Below are positions 45,088 to 60,240 of a stretch of 64,000 nucleotides of DNA, piece by piece. The stretch covers positions 62,001-126,000 of the forward strand of contig NZ_LZEX01000045.1 in the NCBI RefSeq assembly GCF_001676055.1. Reading direction: 5' to 3'. Positions within the stretch are counted from its first letter, which is position 1, and every line of letters begins with the position of its first letter. The stretch is from Morganella psychrotolerans. GTDB taxonomy: Bacteria > Pseudomonadota > Gammaproteobacteria > Enterobacterales > Enterobacteriaceae. The notes under the pieces are model-generated. The model was not told the DNA's origin, searched no databases, and saw only the letters and a program-made list of their open reading frames with translations. The position numbers and the translations under genes are program-made.

Positions 45088-45420
45088 TTAGTTACTGCAA
45101 CAATCAGTTTTAATCATTTCGTGGCACATATCAATACACGCCTGACAGCATCCGATGCACTCCGCATGGCCTCCTTCTGATTTGCATACATCAATGCAAT
45201 CCCGGCATGCTTTCATACAGATTTCGCAGGCTGCTTTAGTGTACGGCGCGGCAGAGGACACGGCCATCGCCGCAAACTGTGCTGCCTCAGCGCAGTGAAG
45301 CATGGCAAGGTGGCATTGCGTGTTATCACCGTGACCCTCTTTCAGGCAACGGACGAGACTCTGACGGCAGTGTGATACGCAGTCGTTAAATACAGCTACA
45401 CATTCGTTAATATTTTTCAT
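45088..45420 (-). CDS. Four-helix-bundle copper-binding protein (DUF326, Csp-like)
   Basis: A 110-residue protein with 18 cysteines, mostly spaced CxxxC or CxxC along predicted helices (CEICMKACRDCIDVC, ECIGCCQACIDMCHE). This is the DUF326 family related to Csp copper-storage proteins, which line the inside of a helical bundle with Cys thiolates to hold many Cu(I). There is no signal peptide, so it should act in the cytoplasm. A MerR/CueR-type promoter lies directly upstream, which fits copper induction. It is monocistronic with its own terminator. Confidence 0.85.
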   Translation of the reverse strand: MKNINECVAVFNDCVSHCRQSLVRCLKEGHGDNTQCHLAMLHCAEAAQFAAMAVSSAAPYTKAACEICMKACRDCIDVCKSEGGHAECIGCCQACIDMCHEMIKTDCCSN

Positions 45421-45819: not shown

Positions 45820-46128
45820 ATACAATAACAGGATTATGAAAATACGCGATATTACTTTGCTATTGTAATAACTTTATTTTTCCGTGTGTTTTCTGTGGAA
45901 TGTTACACTTCGGACCGGTAGTATTTCGGTATGCTATTATATAAAAATTAATATTAACCCCTGCACCAGTCGGATAATATCTTATTTTTTGTTAACATCA
46001 AAATAATGTCTTGATTTAATTTTTAAAAAAAAATGATCATAGAATAAGTGCATGTGATTATGTTTTTTTAATTTATAAATATATAACATGACATGGTACG
46101 TCCTTTACTTTTTGATAAGGAAATCATT
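45820..46128. other. A/T-rich leader of the microcin-like gene
   Basis: About 310 bases, strongly A/T-rich, with no gene. Several TATAAA/TATAAC-like boxes lie near 46070-46090, but no -35 stands out. No operator is convincing. Confidence 0.4.
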
Positions 46129-46398
46129 ATGAAAGAATTATCTGTTAGTGAGCGTGAAGTTGTCAGCGGAAGTGGGTTATTCGATTTTCTGAAGCCCGGA
46201 ACTGGTAACGTTTCTCCTCCAGTTACACCTCCAACGGAGTGTACTGGTGGTGGTAAATTAATTATTGGTGGTGGGATTGGTTTCGGGATTGGTATTTTCC
46301 CGTTCTTTCTCGGACCAATGATTGGCTTTATCAAAACATTTAATTTTTTAATATGTGGTAAGTACTCTCTGAGTATATATCACATTAAGGCCACTTAG
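46129..46398 (+). CDS. Microcin/bacteriocin-like peptide precursor with double-glycine-type leader
   Basis: An 89-residue peptide. MKELSVSEREVVSGS fits the ColV-type leader pattern (Glu-Leu near the start, hydrophobic residues at set spacing, small pair Gly-Ser before the cut), so processing by a peptidase-containing ABC exporter is expected after residue 15. The mature part begins GLFDFLKPGTGN, has a Pro/Thr linker and a glycine-rich hydrophobic helix (IIGGGIGFGIGIFPFFLGPM), with two Cys. AAGGA lies seven bases before the ATG. No exporter or immunity gene is adjacent. The stop codon lies in the terminator loop. Confidence 0.6.
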   Translation: MKELSVSEREVVSGSGLFDFLKPGTGNVSPPVTPPTECTGGGKLIIGGGIGFGIGIFPFFLGPMIGFIKTFNFLICGKYSLSIYHIKAT

Positions 46399-46527: not shown

Positions 46528-46656
46528 TTTAACTTAAACGAAGCTCTAACAAACCTGGTCAAAGTTTAAAATTGTATTATTAGCCGCAATGTTTCTGAGC
46601 TGATAGTATCTGGCTGGCAGTGTGAATAGCCGTGATTTTACAGGAGCAAATTGAGC

Positions 46657-46902
46657 ATGAGCAACATTGAATTACAGTCTGAATTAACCTGTCCGGTTTG
46701 TGGTTATAAAAAAACAGAGACAATGCCGGTGGATGCCTGTCAGTGGTTTTATGAGTGTGAACAGTGCCATACATTATTAAAGCCGTTGCCGGGGGATTGT
46801 TGTGTATTTTGTTCTTTTGGTACGATTGCATGTCCGCCAATACAGGAAGCCGCACTTACGGGTAAAACCGCGTGTTGCTGTCCGTCACCGGACGGAAAAT
46901 AA
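46657..46902 (+). CDS. GDCCVxC-motif small cysteine-rich protein
   Basis: An 81-residue protein with 11 or more cysteines: a zinc-ribbon-like start (LTCPVCGYKKTETMP ... YECEQCHTLL) and the signature GDCCVFCSFGTIACPPIQ. The family is known as GDCCVxC-domain (seleno)proteins and often accompanies metal-resistance genes; its function is not established. Cys stands at the position that is Sec in some members. AGGAG is 10 bases before the ATG at 46657; TTG at 46651 is an alternative. Confidence 0.75.
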   Translation: MSNIELQSELTCPVCGYKKTETMPVDACQWFYECEQCHTLLKPLPGDCCVFCSFGTIACPPIQEAALTGKTACCCPSPDGK

Positions 46903-47717: not shown

Positions 47718-47747
47718 TTGACAAAAAATAATGAATGTAAATATATC
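47718..47747 (+). promoter_or_regulatory. Candidate promoter of the trp leader-trpS transcript
   Basis: TTGACA (47718-47723), 18 bases, TATATC (47742-47747). The -10 box coincides with the edge of an ERIC remnant. Confidence 0.45.
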
Positions 47748-47820
47748 CTTATTTATTCAAACTACAGGTTCGTTGGCGGGATGAAGCCCGATGCTCCCTG
47801 TCTGTCTTTTCTTACCACCG
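47743..47820 (-). repeat. Degenerate, truncated ERIC element (inverted orientation)
   Basis: TATCCTTATTTATTCAAACT and GGTTCGTTGGC match the right end of the other copies on the opposite strand, then GATGCTCCCTGTCTGTCTTTTC matches the core with an internal deletion of roughly 25 bases. The far end is missing. Confidence 0.65.
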
Positions 47821-47864
47821 GAGAAAGTAGTGGCAATAAATTAAAAAAGTTGTAAATTGAAATA

Positions 47865-47954
47865 ATGATGAATAATAAAATTACAGCCCGGTTATCACAC
47901 AATGCTTTTTGGTGGCGCACAACGTGCGGCGCCGGTTTTGTTATGTCATTTTAA
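47865..47954 (+). CDS. Tandem-Trp leader peptide of trpS paralog
   Basis: A 29-codon frame (MM NNKITARLSHNAFWWRTT, then CGAGFVMSF) with consecutive Trp codons at 47910-47915, lying 85 bases before a tryptophanyl-tRNA synthetase gene and immediately before a terminator-like hairpin. Two Trp codons in so short a peptide, next to competing RNA stems, is the layout of an amino-acid attenuator like trpL. The ribosome site is weak. The Trp-tRNA supply would set where the ribosome stalls. Confidence 0.7.
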   Translation: MMNNKITARLSHNAFWWRTTCGAGFVMSF

Positions 47955-47990
47955 TTTTAACAAATCGCCGCCGGAGTGCGGCGATTTCGT
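47911..47990 (+). promoter_or_regulatory. Tryptophan attenuator (1:2, 2:3, 3:4 stems)
   Basis: Stem 1:2: CGCAC (47916-47920) with GTGCG (47924-47928), extended by GG/CC. Stem 2:3 (antiterminator): GCGGCG (47926-47931) with CGCCGC (47966-47971). Stem 3:4 (terminator): AAATCGCCGC (47962-47971) with GCGGCGATTT (47978-47987) followed by CGTTT. The stems are mutually exclusive, and a ribosome stalled on the Trp codons would block 1:2 and favour the antiterminator. Confidence 0.68.
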
Positions 47991-48039
47991 TTAAGGTATT
48001 CACTCTGGCGGCCTCTGATAGTATTCAAGAGGAAATAAT

Positions 48040-49053
48040 ATGCCAGCTCATCAAACCAAGCCGATTATCCTGACCGGCGACCGTATTACCGGGCCATTGC
48101 ACCTTGGTCATTATATCGGCTCCCTGCATCAGCGCGTTTTACTGCAACATTCATCCACTCAATATGTGCTGATGGCCGATTTACAGGGCCTGACTGATAA
48201 CGGAGCACATCCGGAAAAAGTTAACCGCTATCTGTATGATGTGGTTGCCGATTATCTGGCAGTCGGTATCGATCCCGCTCTGTCGGTGATTTGTCTGCAA
48301 TCCGCACTGCCCGCGCTGGCGGAACTGACACTGCTGTATCTCAATCTGGTGACGGTTTCGCGCCTTGAGCGCAATCCAACCGTTAAACATGAAATCATTC
48401 AAAAGCAATTTACCCGAACTGTTCCGGCGGGGTTTCTTATCTATCCGGTAAGCCAGGCGGCAGACATTTCAGCATTCAAAGCTGAACTGGTGCCTGTAGG
48501 GGAAGATCAGTTGCCGATGATTGAACAAACCAATGAAATCGTCAGTAAAGTAAACAGTATTACCGGTGAGCCGCTGCTGATGCATTGCCGCGCACAGGTC
48601 GGTAAAGCCGGAAGGTTGCCCGGCATTGACGGTAACGGGAAAATGTCAAAATCCCTCGGGAATGTGATCAATTTGTCTGTCAGTGAGGATGATTTAACCC
48701 GCGCGGTGAATGCGATGTTTACTGATCCGCAGCATCTACGGGTGTCTGATCCCGGGCGGATTGAGGGAAATGTCGTATTTACCTATCTTGATGCGTTTCA
48801 TCCGGATACTGCCCTGGTTTCTGATCTGAAAGCACAGTATCAGGGCGGCGGATTGGGTGACCGGCAGTGTAAAATTGTACTGAATGATTGTTTGCAGACA
48901 CTGCTGGCACCGGTTCGTGAGGAGCGGGCACGTCTGATGGCGGATAAACATTATCTGCTTTCGGTTATCCGCAGCGGCACGGAAAAGGCGCGCGAAGTGA
49001 CACAGAAGACACTGGATCAGGTAAAGCGGGGCATGGGACTGTTTGTTATCTGA
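48040..49053 (+). CDS. trpS: Tryptophanyl-tRNA synthetase (second copy type)
   Basis: A 337-residue class I synthetase. HLGHY (HIGH motif) near residue 22, GEDQLPMIEQT, and KMSKS in DGNGKMSKSLGN are intact, so it should be active. The housekeeping trpS of enterobacteria lies beside dam-rpe-gph; that locus is not in this window, so this is inferred to be a paralog. AGAGGAAA precedes the ATG. It follows its own Trp attenuator, so it should be induced when charged tRNA-Trp is low. A role in resistance to TrpRS inhibitors such as indolmycin is possible but unproven. Confidence 0.9.
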   Translation: MPAHQTKPIILTGDRITGPLHLGHYIGSLHQRVLLQHSSTQYVLMADLQGLTDNGAHPEKVNRYLYDVVADYLAVGIDPALSVICLQSALPALAELTLLYLNLVTVSRLERNPTVKHEIIQKQFTRTVPAGFLIYPVSQAADISAFKAELVPVGEDQLPMIEQTNEIVSKVNSITGEPLLMHCRAQVGKAGRLPGIDGNGKMSKSLGNVINLSVSEDDLTRAVNAMFTDPQHLRVSDPGRIEGNVVFTYLDAFHPDTALVSDLKAQYQGGGLGDRQCKIVLNDCLQTLLAPVREERARLMADKHYLLSVIRSGTEKAREVTQKTLDQVKRGMGLFVI

Positions 49054-49161: not shown

Positions 49162-49368
49162 GTGGGTATTGTTAAAATCTCCGATGAATTACATGTTTAT
49201 CTGCGCCGTGCGAGCAATGTAATGTCACGCTCAATCAATGCACAGGCGGAATTCTGGATAAAAATCGGTATGCAGGCTGAAATGAATCCCGATAAAACCT
49301 TCACAATGCTTATCAGTGAGATGCTGGAAAAAGAGTCACTGAGCCGGAAAGGAGAGCAGCATGAGTAG
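49162..49368 (+). CDS. ParD-like (ribbon-helix-helix) small protein
   Basis: A 68-residue protein: MGIVKISDELHVYLRRASN, then RSINAQAEFWIKIGMQAE and a charged tail. This matches the ParD-like family (PF11903 type), related to antitoxin DNA-binding domains. GTG start with AAAGGA upstream. Its end overlaps the start of a methionine aminopeptidase gene by 8 bases, a conserved pairing in other bacteria as I recall. There is no ParE toxin. Confidence 0.7.
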   Translation: MGIVKISDELHVYLRRASNVMSRSINAQAEFWIKIGMQAEMNPDKTFTMLISEMLEKESLSRKGEQHE

Positions 49369-50137
49369 TATCGTTATTAAGACAGCCGCAGAAATCGAAC
49401 TGATGCGGGAATCAGGTCGTTTGCTGGCACAGGTTTTTGCCATGCTTGATGATTTCATTAAGCCGGGGGTTTCCACTCTGGCAATCAATGACAAAGTTGA
49501 AGATTATATTGTTAATACACTTCAGTCCCGTCCTGCCAGCAAAGGTCAGTACGGGTTTGAATATGTGCTGAATACCTCACTGAATGAAGTGGTGTGCCAT
49601 GGTGTGCCGAAAGCGGATGAACTGGTAAAAGATAAAGATATTATCAATGTGGACATCACTCTGGAAAAAAATGGCTTTATTGCCGATTCCAGTAAGATGT
49701 ATGTAATGCCGGAAGCCTCTCCGCTGGCGAAAAAACTGGTGAAAGCGACTTACGAAGCGATGTGGGAAGGTATTCAGCAGGTAAAACCGGGTGCCACACT
49801 CGGTGATATCGGCTCTGCCATTCAGCACTATGCGGAGTCACGCGGTTACAGTGTGGTGCGCGAATATTGCGGGCACGGGATCGGGCGTGAAATGCATGAA
49901 TCGCCGCAGGTGCTGCACTATGGTGTCCGTGGTCAGGGCACTGAGCTCAAAGAGGGGATGACCTTCACGATTGAGCCGATGATCAACCAGGGCGGTGCTA
50001 AGATTAAAACCAAGAAAGATGGCTGGACAGTTGTCACGCGGGATAAAAAATTATCTGCGCAATCCGAGCACACGATTGTGGTGACGGCAACCGGTTATGA
50101 AGTGCTGACGCTGCGTGCGGATGAAACACTGCGCTGA
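49361..50137 (+). CDS. map: Type I methionine aminopeptidase (paralog)
   Basis: A 258-residue MetAP. All five metal ligands are found: Asp in NVDITLEKNG, Asp in IADSSKMY, His in YCGHGIGREMHE, Glu in FTIEPMI and Glu in SEHTIVV. The housekeeping map lies by rpsB in enterobacteria, so this is probably a second copy. AAAGGAGAGCAGC precedes the ATG, and translation is coupled to the ParD-like gene. It ends before a bidirectional terminator. Confidence 0.9.
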   Translation: MSSIVIKTAAEIELMRESGRLLAQVFAMLDDFIKPGVSTLAINDKVEDYIVNTLQSRPASKGQYGFEYVLNTSLNEVVCHGVPKADELVKDKDIINVDITLEKNGFIADSSKMYVMPEASPLAKKLVKATYEAMWEGIQQVKPGATLGDIGSAIQHYAESRGYSVVREYCGHGIGREMHESPQVLHYGVRGQGTELKEGMTFTIEPMINQGGAKIKTKKDGWTVVTRDKKLSAQSEHTIVVTATGYEVLTLRADETLR

Positions 50138-60028: not shown

Positions 60029-60240
60029 AGTTGCTCATTCAATTCTTTATGTCGGCCCGCAGAACAGGTGGAGATATGCCACATAATACCGGGAATGATG
60101 CCAGAGTAAGGTGCCTACCGTCCGCTAACACCGATAATTGCGCAAGCTTTATCAAACACAGGGCGACACGTTGAGTGAGGCACCACCATAATCTCACTGA
60201 CGGGACGGCAGGAAAACTGTCGTCCCGTCATCATTTTATC
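60029..60240 (+). ncRNA. glmY: GlmY small RNA
   Basis: Begins AGTTGCTCATTC and soon TTTATGTCGGCCC, matching the 5' end of E. coli GlmY (AGTGGCTCATTC...TTATGTCAGCCC). It lies between purL and glrK, as in E. coli, behind a sigma-54 promoter with three GlrR sites. The 3' end is a terminator stem TGACGGGACG (60198-60207) with CGTCCCGTCA (60221-60230) then TCATTTT. GlmY titrates RapZ and so stabilises GlmZ, raising glucosamine-6-phosphate synthase. The total of about 210 nt is a little longer than in E. coli (184); most of the centre is not conserved. Confidence 0.85.

Follow-up and report, generated by a model that had tools for sequence, protein, structure and literature searches.

What controls trpS2, a gene for a second tryptophanyl-tRNA synthetase (TrpRS) in Morganella psychrotolerans, is the question raised by the locus studied here, and we consider it about 80% probable that the answer is a ribosome-mediated attenuator which senses the charging of tRNA-Trp and controls this auxiliary enzyme. 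In the window (the whole stretch of 64,000 nt that was analysed), a leader peptide ORF of 29 codons plus stop (MMNNKITARLSHNAFWWRTTCGAGFVMSF; 47865-47954, stop codon at 47952-47954, plus strand, as are trpS2 and all features of the leader) contains the adjacent control codons TGG TGG (47910-47915), which are read directly in the sequence, and ends 85 nt ahead of the start of trpS2 (48040-49053), which encodes a protein of 337 amino acids. Segment 1 (47909-47919), which a ribosome on the Trp codons would mask, can pair with segment 2 (47921-47937; -18.9 kcal/mol for 1:2), segment 2 can instead pair with segment 3 (47962-47978, hairpin loop included; -16.0 kcal/mol for 2:3), and segment 3 can pair with segment 4 (47978-47987; -16.9 kcal/mol for 3:4) to give a terminator-like hairpin with a weak U-run behind it. 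The fold of the leader region amounts to -42 kcal/mol (z = -2.38), a value equally low in 4 of 200 shuffles. A Trp-Trp leader with three mutually exclusive stems, 85 bases ahead of a trpS gene, is what the initial annotation of this DNA had described, and these observations are confirmed. Three features had not been listed there, namely the position of a promoter, a fifth segment and a hairpin at the Shine-Dalgarno (SD) sequence. Segment 5 (48001-48012) forms 12 bp with segment 3 plus the loop (47967-47978; -25.6 kcal/mol for 3:5) and thereby excludes 3:4, while the adjoining segment 5b, CCUCU (48012-48016), is one arm of the SD hairpin 5:6, the other being segment 6, the SD sequence AGAGGAAA of trpS2 (48028-48035).

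Also, some other features of the window were recorded. Just past trpS2 (49162-50137), a ParD-like gene (PF11903) overlaps the start of a gene for a type I methionine aminopeptidase (TIGR00500). A small ORF at 46093-46398 has no match in Pfam, and its inner start MKELSVSEREVVSGSG is reminiscent of double-glycine leaders of class II microcins. A GDCCVxC-domain protein (NF041374) is encoded at 46651-46902, a cysteine-rich protein of 110 amino acids, copper-storage-like by eye and with no Pfam or NCBIfam match, at 45088-45420 on the minus strand, and a GlmY-type small RNA (RF00128) is found at 60029-60189.

The product of trpS2 scored 200.6 bits against the NCBIfam trpS model TIGR00233, for which the cut-off is 176.75. 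Among solved structures, the chains 1yi8 and 2a4m, which stem from Deinococcus, come closest to it, and 2a4m carries the name TrpRS II. TrpS2 keeps the HxGH-type and KMSKS motifs. A separate housekeeping trpS, the presence of which had been left to be confirmed, does exist in the same genome (G000:C43:39584-40567); its product is 30% identical to TrpS2, and all six genomes of the genus carry both genes. At the housekeeping gene a Trp-Trp leader was found in none of these six genomes, the window's own included. The accessible part of PMC4899734 reports that exchange of His43 for Asn in the Bacillus enzyme leads to indolmycin resistance. Following the alignment ranges to 1i6k, and assuming no gap before, the equivalent residue in the housekeeping protein is His44, and in TrpS2 it is Gln49; the position is His in both housekeeping TrpRS compared and Gln in 17 of 17 TrpS2. 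A copy from Pseudoalteromonas luteoviolacea HI1 (L156; 63% identical over its best segment and among the best 80 of 593 relatives) is preceded by methyltransferase, glyoxalase-family and aminotransferase genes and followed by a LuxR-type gene, and a similar gene order is given for the indolmycin cluster of other P. luteoviolacea strains in the available part of PMC5069768. The HI1 copy has no Trp-Trp leader, whereas the copy of strain IPB1 (L181) has one. Gln49 and the setting of the HI1 copy support a possible role of TrpS2 against TrpRS inhibitors; a role towards indolmycin is plausible, and Trp shortage alone would be an equally good trigger.

The initial annotation had asked for the conservation of the Trp codons in relatives and had held that their loss at homologous trpS loci would count against it. 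All of the first 32 loci read (6 from the genus, where every genome has it, and 26 from the family) carry a Trp-Trp leader. Using a rule that demands TGGTGG in an ATG-started ORF with its stop 60-180 nt before trpS2, a Trp-Trp leader was detected in 90 of the 99 whole-genome loci whose TrpS2 is at least 55% identical (reverse complements 0/99, shuffle mean 0.34). At more distant TrpRS loci (<55% identity) it was absent (0/28; reverse complements 1/28). For named loci, the genomes of which may overlap with the whole-genome set, a leader was found in 49 of 80 (reverse complements 0, shuffle mean 0.16), which gives no overall frequency because these loci are the best 80 of 593 relatives; a looser rule yielded 51 of these same 80, at least one of them (L210) by chance. 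Thus the Trp codons are mostly kept, but among the best 80 of 593 relatives all 12 named copies from Acinetobacter and all 3 from Cupriavidus are without the leader, and trpS2 can therefore persist without it. In one genome (G050), trpS2 has decayed so that only residues 239-334 are recognisable, and the leader remnant in front of it (L251; G050:C5:18567-18673) lacks both Trp codons.

TrpS2 itself was found at E ≤ 1e-60 in 41 of 295 family-level, 49 of 295 order-level, 18 of 369 class-level and 33 of 398 phylum-level genomes, these samples being overlapping. The leader occurs in alpha-, beta- and gamma-proteobacteria and on some plasmids, and in single records of Deinococcus, Nonomuraea and Embleya. 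Named carriers among the best 80 of 593 relatives include Hafnia, Kluyvera, Klebsiella, Serratia, Enterobacter, Aeromonas, Moritella, Photobacterium, Vibrio, Rhizobium, Bradyrhizobium, Ruegeria, Massilia and Burkholderia. Fourteen records came from a plasmid collection, several of them being chromosome-sized or small linear pieces; ten carry the leader (L135, L136, L137, L138, L140, L142, L223, L225, L226 and, from Proteus, L227), with L135, L137 and L142 being clear plasmids, and four are without it (L139, L141, L224 and L228). In the Salmonella record L138, the Rfam family isrQ (RF01399; 171-332, minus strand) lies divergent to and adjoins the trpS2 leader; calculated from the coordinates, the 5' end of isrQ and the start of the leader come together near position 330. 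In a tree of 114 of the 214 TrpRS proteins, which contains one very long row (L002) and in which L226 is wrongly labelled as having no Trp-Trp leader, the leader label requires 14 changes, compared to 36.2 for shuffled labels (0/500), and 66 of the 68 rows labelled as having the leader fall into one clade of 84 (support 100/97). When a covariance model (R1) built from 34 leaders was run on the six genomes of the genus, each gave a single strong match, located at trpS2, and no further strong one. Across the family, 21 of 119 genomes had a match at E ≤ 0.01. In 15 of these the match reached E ≤ 2.7e-7; of the six weak ones, the two examined (G072 and G118) show only a TrpRS that is about 30% identical.

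Control by a T-box or another riboswitch might be considered for such a gene, as T-boxes control aminoacyl-tRNA synthetase genes in Firmicutes according to the accessible part of PMC1262725. However, when Rfam 15 was searched with the leader region, no match reached the gathering score and only unrelated sub-threshold ones appeared at E ≤ 10; likewise, no T-box was matched in Rfam for the related trpS genes on Enterococcus, Staphylococcus and Bacteroides plasmids (L139, L224 and L228), which are without a Trp-Trp leader, and in the Gram-positive copies L139 and L224 no family reached the gathering score. We regard this explanation as having next to no chance of being right.

In order to locate the start of the transcript, 141 leaders were aligned on their ATG, 134 of them distinct (effective number 92), with L013 (a duplicate of L005), L133, L069 and L210 excluded; L013 was also dropped from the counts for SD openness, the leader rule and the tree. 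At a fixed position ahead of the ATG, a sigma-70-type promoter was evident in these 134 leaders, with the columns T-35 (0.75), T-34 (0.53), G-33 (0.46), T-15 (0.52), G-14 (0.63), T-12 (0.57), A-11 (0.73), T-7 (0.66) and C-1 (0.50). The pattern TAnnnT lies exactly 6 nt ahead of the ATG in 65 of the 134 and at any other spacing in at most 15, and a promoter with at least 7 of 12 matches at a spacing of 5-7 is present in 77 of 134, when compared to 3-10 of 134 at five control spacings. In the window, the -35-like hexamer GTGGCA (47830-47835), located at the position of the conserved T-35/T-34/G-33, is followed after 17 nt by the -10-like hexamer TAAATT (47853-47858) and this after 6 nt by the start codon of the leader, which would place +1 on the A of that codon; the arrangement fits, but each hexamer agrees with its consensus (TTGACA for the -35 box) in only 4 of 6 positions. 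An SD-like 4-mer precedes 16 of the 134 leaders and 124 of the 134 trpS2 starts, the stretches searched being slightly unequal in length (12 nt ahead of the leaders and 14 nt ahead of trpS2). Since the promoter has a fixed position and an SD is mostly absent before leaders, the RNA should start at the leader AUG, and from this promoter position we predict that the leader should be translated as a leaderless mRNA. Proteus is an exception to the pattern, having a GTG-start leader behind AAGGAAAG.

A leaderless Trp leader RNA, with its first nucleotide in the AUG itself, has been described for trpL (rnTrpL) of Sinorhizobium meliloti (available parts of PMC7298713 and PMC10117765), and for this RNA and its peptide, peTrpL, an action in trans is reported in the former. 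A similar action of the leader peptide or of a short RNA made from the trpS2 leader, with the control of trpS2 being secondary, seems to us very unlikely, because the peptides share, as judged by eye, little except Trp-Trp and the next residue, and because the one strong match of the covariance model in each of the six same-genus genomes sits at trpS2 itself. The S. meliloti leader controls trpE(G), and in the accessible parts of the two papers no fifth segment pairing with an SD is described, whereas the trpS2 leader has one.

The competing stems were compared in 39 of the 43 family loci, leaving out L005, L016, L033 and L110; earlier covariation counts had been made on 34 of these 39 leaders, and all 39 give slightly lower pairing. 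Hairpin 3:4 covaries, with 94.0% of cells paired, compared to 80.8% after shuffling, and 37 double-changed cells, compared to 10.6. Similarly, for 3:5 there are 88.9% of cells paired (83.7% after shuffling and 38-49% when the segments are slid against each other) and 28 double-changed cells (10.0 after shuffling). In each of the two helices, 2 of 5 measures were not above shuffles in the 39 leaders, and relatedness of the leaders can by itself raise such measures above shuffles. The core of 2:3, GGCGGC:GCCGCC, is almost invariant in 34 relatives, and for this reason 2:3 is without support from covariation. Thus, of the covarying stems that the initial annotation had anticipated, 3:4 was borne out and 2:3 speaks neither for nor against.

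The effect of a stalled ribosome on these stems was studied by folding, and 82 of 86 loci tried could be used, four having given no hairpin, with L069, L133, L110, L005 and L122 not in the set. When a ribosome was placed on the first Trp codon instead of at the stop, the probability of 3:4 was lower in 38 loci, higher in 1 and equal in 43. In the window, one folding set-up gave 0.23 on the first Trp codon and 0.98 at the stop; with other masks the effect of stalling on 3:4 was smaller or reversed, since the stop codon of this leader comes late enough for a ribosome parked on it to reach segment 3. For the window transcript up to 47995, the probability of 3:4 was 0.30 or 0.51 with the ribosome on the first or second Trp codon and 0.67 with the ribosome at the stop, corresponding to 3.0 or 5.2 expected 3:4 pairs in the stalled states versus 4.5 or 3.7 at the stop. 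On the first Trp codon 2:3 reached 7.6 expected pairs, compared to the 3.0 of 3:4, on the second the two were about even (4.7 in 2:3), and without a ribosome 3:4 won with 9.9 pairs, compared to 0.0 in 2:3. Once segment 5 has been made (transcript to 48070), 3:5 dominates both in the stalled state and at the stop, and 3:4 is found only in the absence of a ribosome. In the window there are 5 T in the 8 nt past 3:4, and at least 5 U in 8 are present in only 28 of the 82 loci, with fewer in 54; L003, L091 and L113 have 7 U in 8. Two procedures were given up: the first automatic choice of hairpins often took 3:5 for 3:4 and was replaced by the limited search used for the 82 loci, and a strict ungapped search for helix triples returned 61 of 88 loci, counts which are not relied on because several triples are not real helices (the window's 3:5, for example, was labelled 3:4).

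The pairings of segment 5 were further examined by comparing partners from the same locus with partners from other loci. From 91 automatically assigned leaders, 89 were taken for the cost of SD opening (without L069 and L133), 88 for the helix triples and the first hairpin choice (also without L110), and 82 for the own-partner duplexes and the overlap of segments (further without L005, L041, L042, L044, L045 and L053); start codons were assigned by rule, and some are wrong (for example L041-L045 and L122). Own-partner duplexes of 3:5 averaged -23.7 kcal/mol, when compared to -18.0 for partners from another locus, and those of 5:6 -13.5 compared to -9.5 (82 loci, 0/2000 permutations in each case). 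In 25 dissimilar loci, 0 of 5000 permutations were as good for either pairing, and in 22 of the 25 at most 10 of 200 shuffles were equally good. The pairings 3:5 and 5:6 are thus lineage-specific, 3:5 across alpha-, beta- and gamma-proteobacterial groups. For 5:6, support rests on these duplexes because the enterobacterial MAFFT columns of 5:6 are out of register. The locus L005 (G004) has an insertion of about 60 bases that separates segment 5 from the SD of trpS2; by eye, these bases resemble the window stretch near 47740-47790 and are perhaps a small mobile repeat; the trpS2 match of this genome is broken near its C-terminus.

That transcription alone is attenuated, as in trpL, with 5:6 being an ordinary hairpin close to the SD and the match of 3:5 having no role, would suit the fall of 3:4 on stalling in 38 of 82 loci, the window included, and the fact that in the window 3:5 and 5:6 are compatible, sharing 1 nt and co-existing in folding. 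The lineage-specific 3:5 pairing across the three proteobacterial groups, with its double changes, argues against a segment without function, and we consider this explanation rather unlikely. At the other end stands a mainly translational attenuator, in which 3:4 would be a switch and not a terminator, and in which segment 5 would close the ribosome-binding site of trpS2 in fed cells and, on stalling, pair with segment 3 and so open it. For such a device one may cite the lineage specificity of 5:6, the lack of 5 U in 8 behind 3:4 in the 54 loci, and the overlap of 3:5 and 5:6 in segment 5, which has a median of 10 nt and in 80 of 82 loci amounts to at least 3 nt. Against it, this overlap is in the window the single nucleotide mentioned, three loci have 7 U in 8, and equilibrium folding showed no consistent effect of stalling on SD opening. 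In 89 loci, opening was cheaper in the stalled state in 33, dearer in 18 and about equal in 38; openness was greater when stalled in 51 of 91 loci, and in most loci the SD stays paired whatever the state of the ribosome. A mainly translational mode of action is therefore, in our opinion, also doubtful. As a fair U-run is present in no more than 28 of the 82 loci, the control of translation by way of 5:6 may carry greater weight in many lineages, and the attenuator perhaps acts on translation too in many relatives.

The attenuator that we favour, sensing the charging of tRNA-Trp, would work as follows. Transcription would start at the AUG of the leader, which would be read as a leaderless mRNA. 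With ample charged tRNA-Trp, the ribosome would pass Trp-Trp, 3:4 would form and the message would end early; where relatives have a poor U-run, the outcome would instead be a free segment 5 that closes the ribosome-binding site of trpS2. If charged tRNA-Trp is scarce, the ribosome would stall on Trp-Trp and mask segment 1, so that segment 2 would pair with 3 and hold off 3:4, transcription would continue, and segment 5 would then take over segment 3, with trpS2 being made as a consequence. The order is likely to be a kinetic one, in which 2:3 delays 3:4 until segment 5 has been made and 3:5 forms before the SD emerges. TrpS2, which is without the His43 that contacts indolmycin, would restore charging during inhibition of the main TrpRS or a shortage of Trp. 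The checks made on the sequence support the earlier interpretation of the locus as a Trp-charging attenuator on a spare TrpRS, and the response to charging, like that to indolmycin, is inferred.

For trpS of Streptomyces, the relevant papers are those of Kitabatake (2002) and of Vecchione and Sello (2009, 2010). According to its title, as cited in PMC4787780, the 2010 paper reports that an auxiliary TrpRS gene is controlled by ribosome-mediated attenuation. An attenuator was predicted for trpS2 of S. avermitilis (PMC1262725), and in S. lividans a leaderless leader, trpL2, precedes trpS (PMC8079986), as stated in the accessible parts of these two papers. The initial annotation had held that in Gram-positives charging control of trpS is exerted by other means, a statement which misses these Streptomyces systems. 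In their accessible descriptions, they have in common with the locus studied here a Trp-coding leader directly upstream of trpS and a link to indolmycin resistance, and the S. lividans leader, with its leaderless start and its hairpins without a U-rich stretch, resembles the leaderless start predicted here and the weak U-run of the window. In contrast, the trpS2 leaders described here occur mainly in Proteobacteria, some of them on plasmids, have Trp-Trp where trpL2 of S. lividans has a single Trp, and possess a segment 5 that pairs with segment 3 or the SD of trpS2, unlike the Streptomyces systems as far as the accessible parts describe them. The Embleya record (Streptomycetaceae; L226) has MRFTAGRSWWRST before its trpS.

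When compared to the trpL of its own genome (MNMHKLNNRWWRNSSRRAEWLCVHVS before trpE), the trpS2 leader is similar in having adjacent Trp codons before a GC-rich hairpin. By eye, however, an AAAGGA ribosome-binding site and a U-rich terminator can be recognised in the trpE leader, whereas the trpS2 leader is without a clear SD or a strong U-run and, unlike the trpE leader, has segment 5. The attenuator of pheST controls the only enzyme of its kind, unlike that of trpS2. The accessible part of PMC1262725 gives pheST as a gamma-proteobacterial example of attenuation, and trpS2 would resemble it as an aminoacyl-tRNA synthetase gene under a classical attenuator. In the open literature, which omits most subscription papers and hence gives no proof of absence, we found no account of such attenuation at a proteobacterial trpS2. 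The principle is already published for Streptomyces trpS.

Tentatively, and at somewhat less than even odds, we suggest that the trpS2 locus represents a widespread, self-contained and transferable module of alpha-, beta- and gamma-proteobacteria, including enterobacterial plasmids, in which a leaderless Trp-Trp leader and a six-segment RNA would govern an indolmycin-tolerant TrpRS at the level of transcription as well as of translation, such that inhibition of the main enzyme would induce its replacement. If true, the charging-sensitive switch of the Streptomyces spare TrpRS would be a general bacterial device, found in common enterobacteria and vibrios as well. Salmonella trpS2 has been suggested as the reason why trpS tolerates insertions there (accessible part of PMC3487940), and the attenuator would account for the silence of this gene and of other trpS2 genes until they are needed. 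The leaderless start together with the fifth segment would offer a testable case of one RNA serving the control of both transcription and translation. The finding would also bear on drugs targeting TrpRS, as such a drug may itself turn on a spare enzyme that is otherwise silent.
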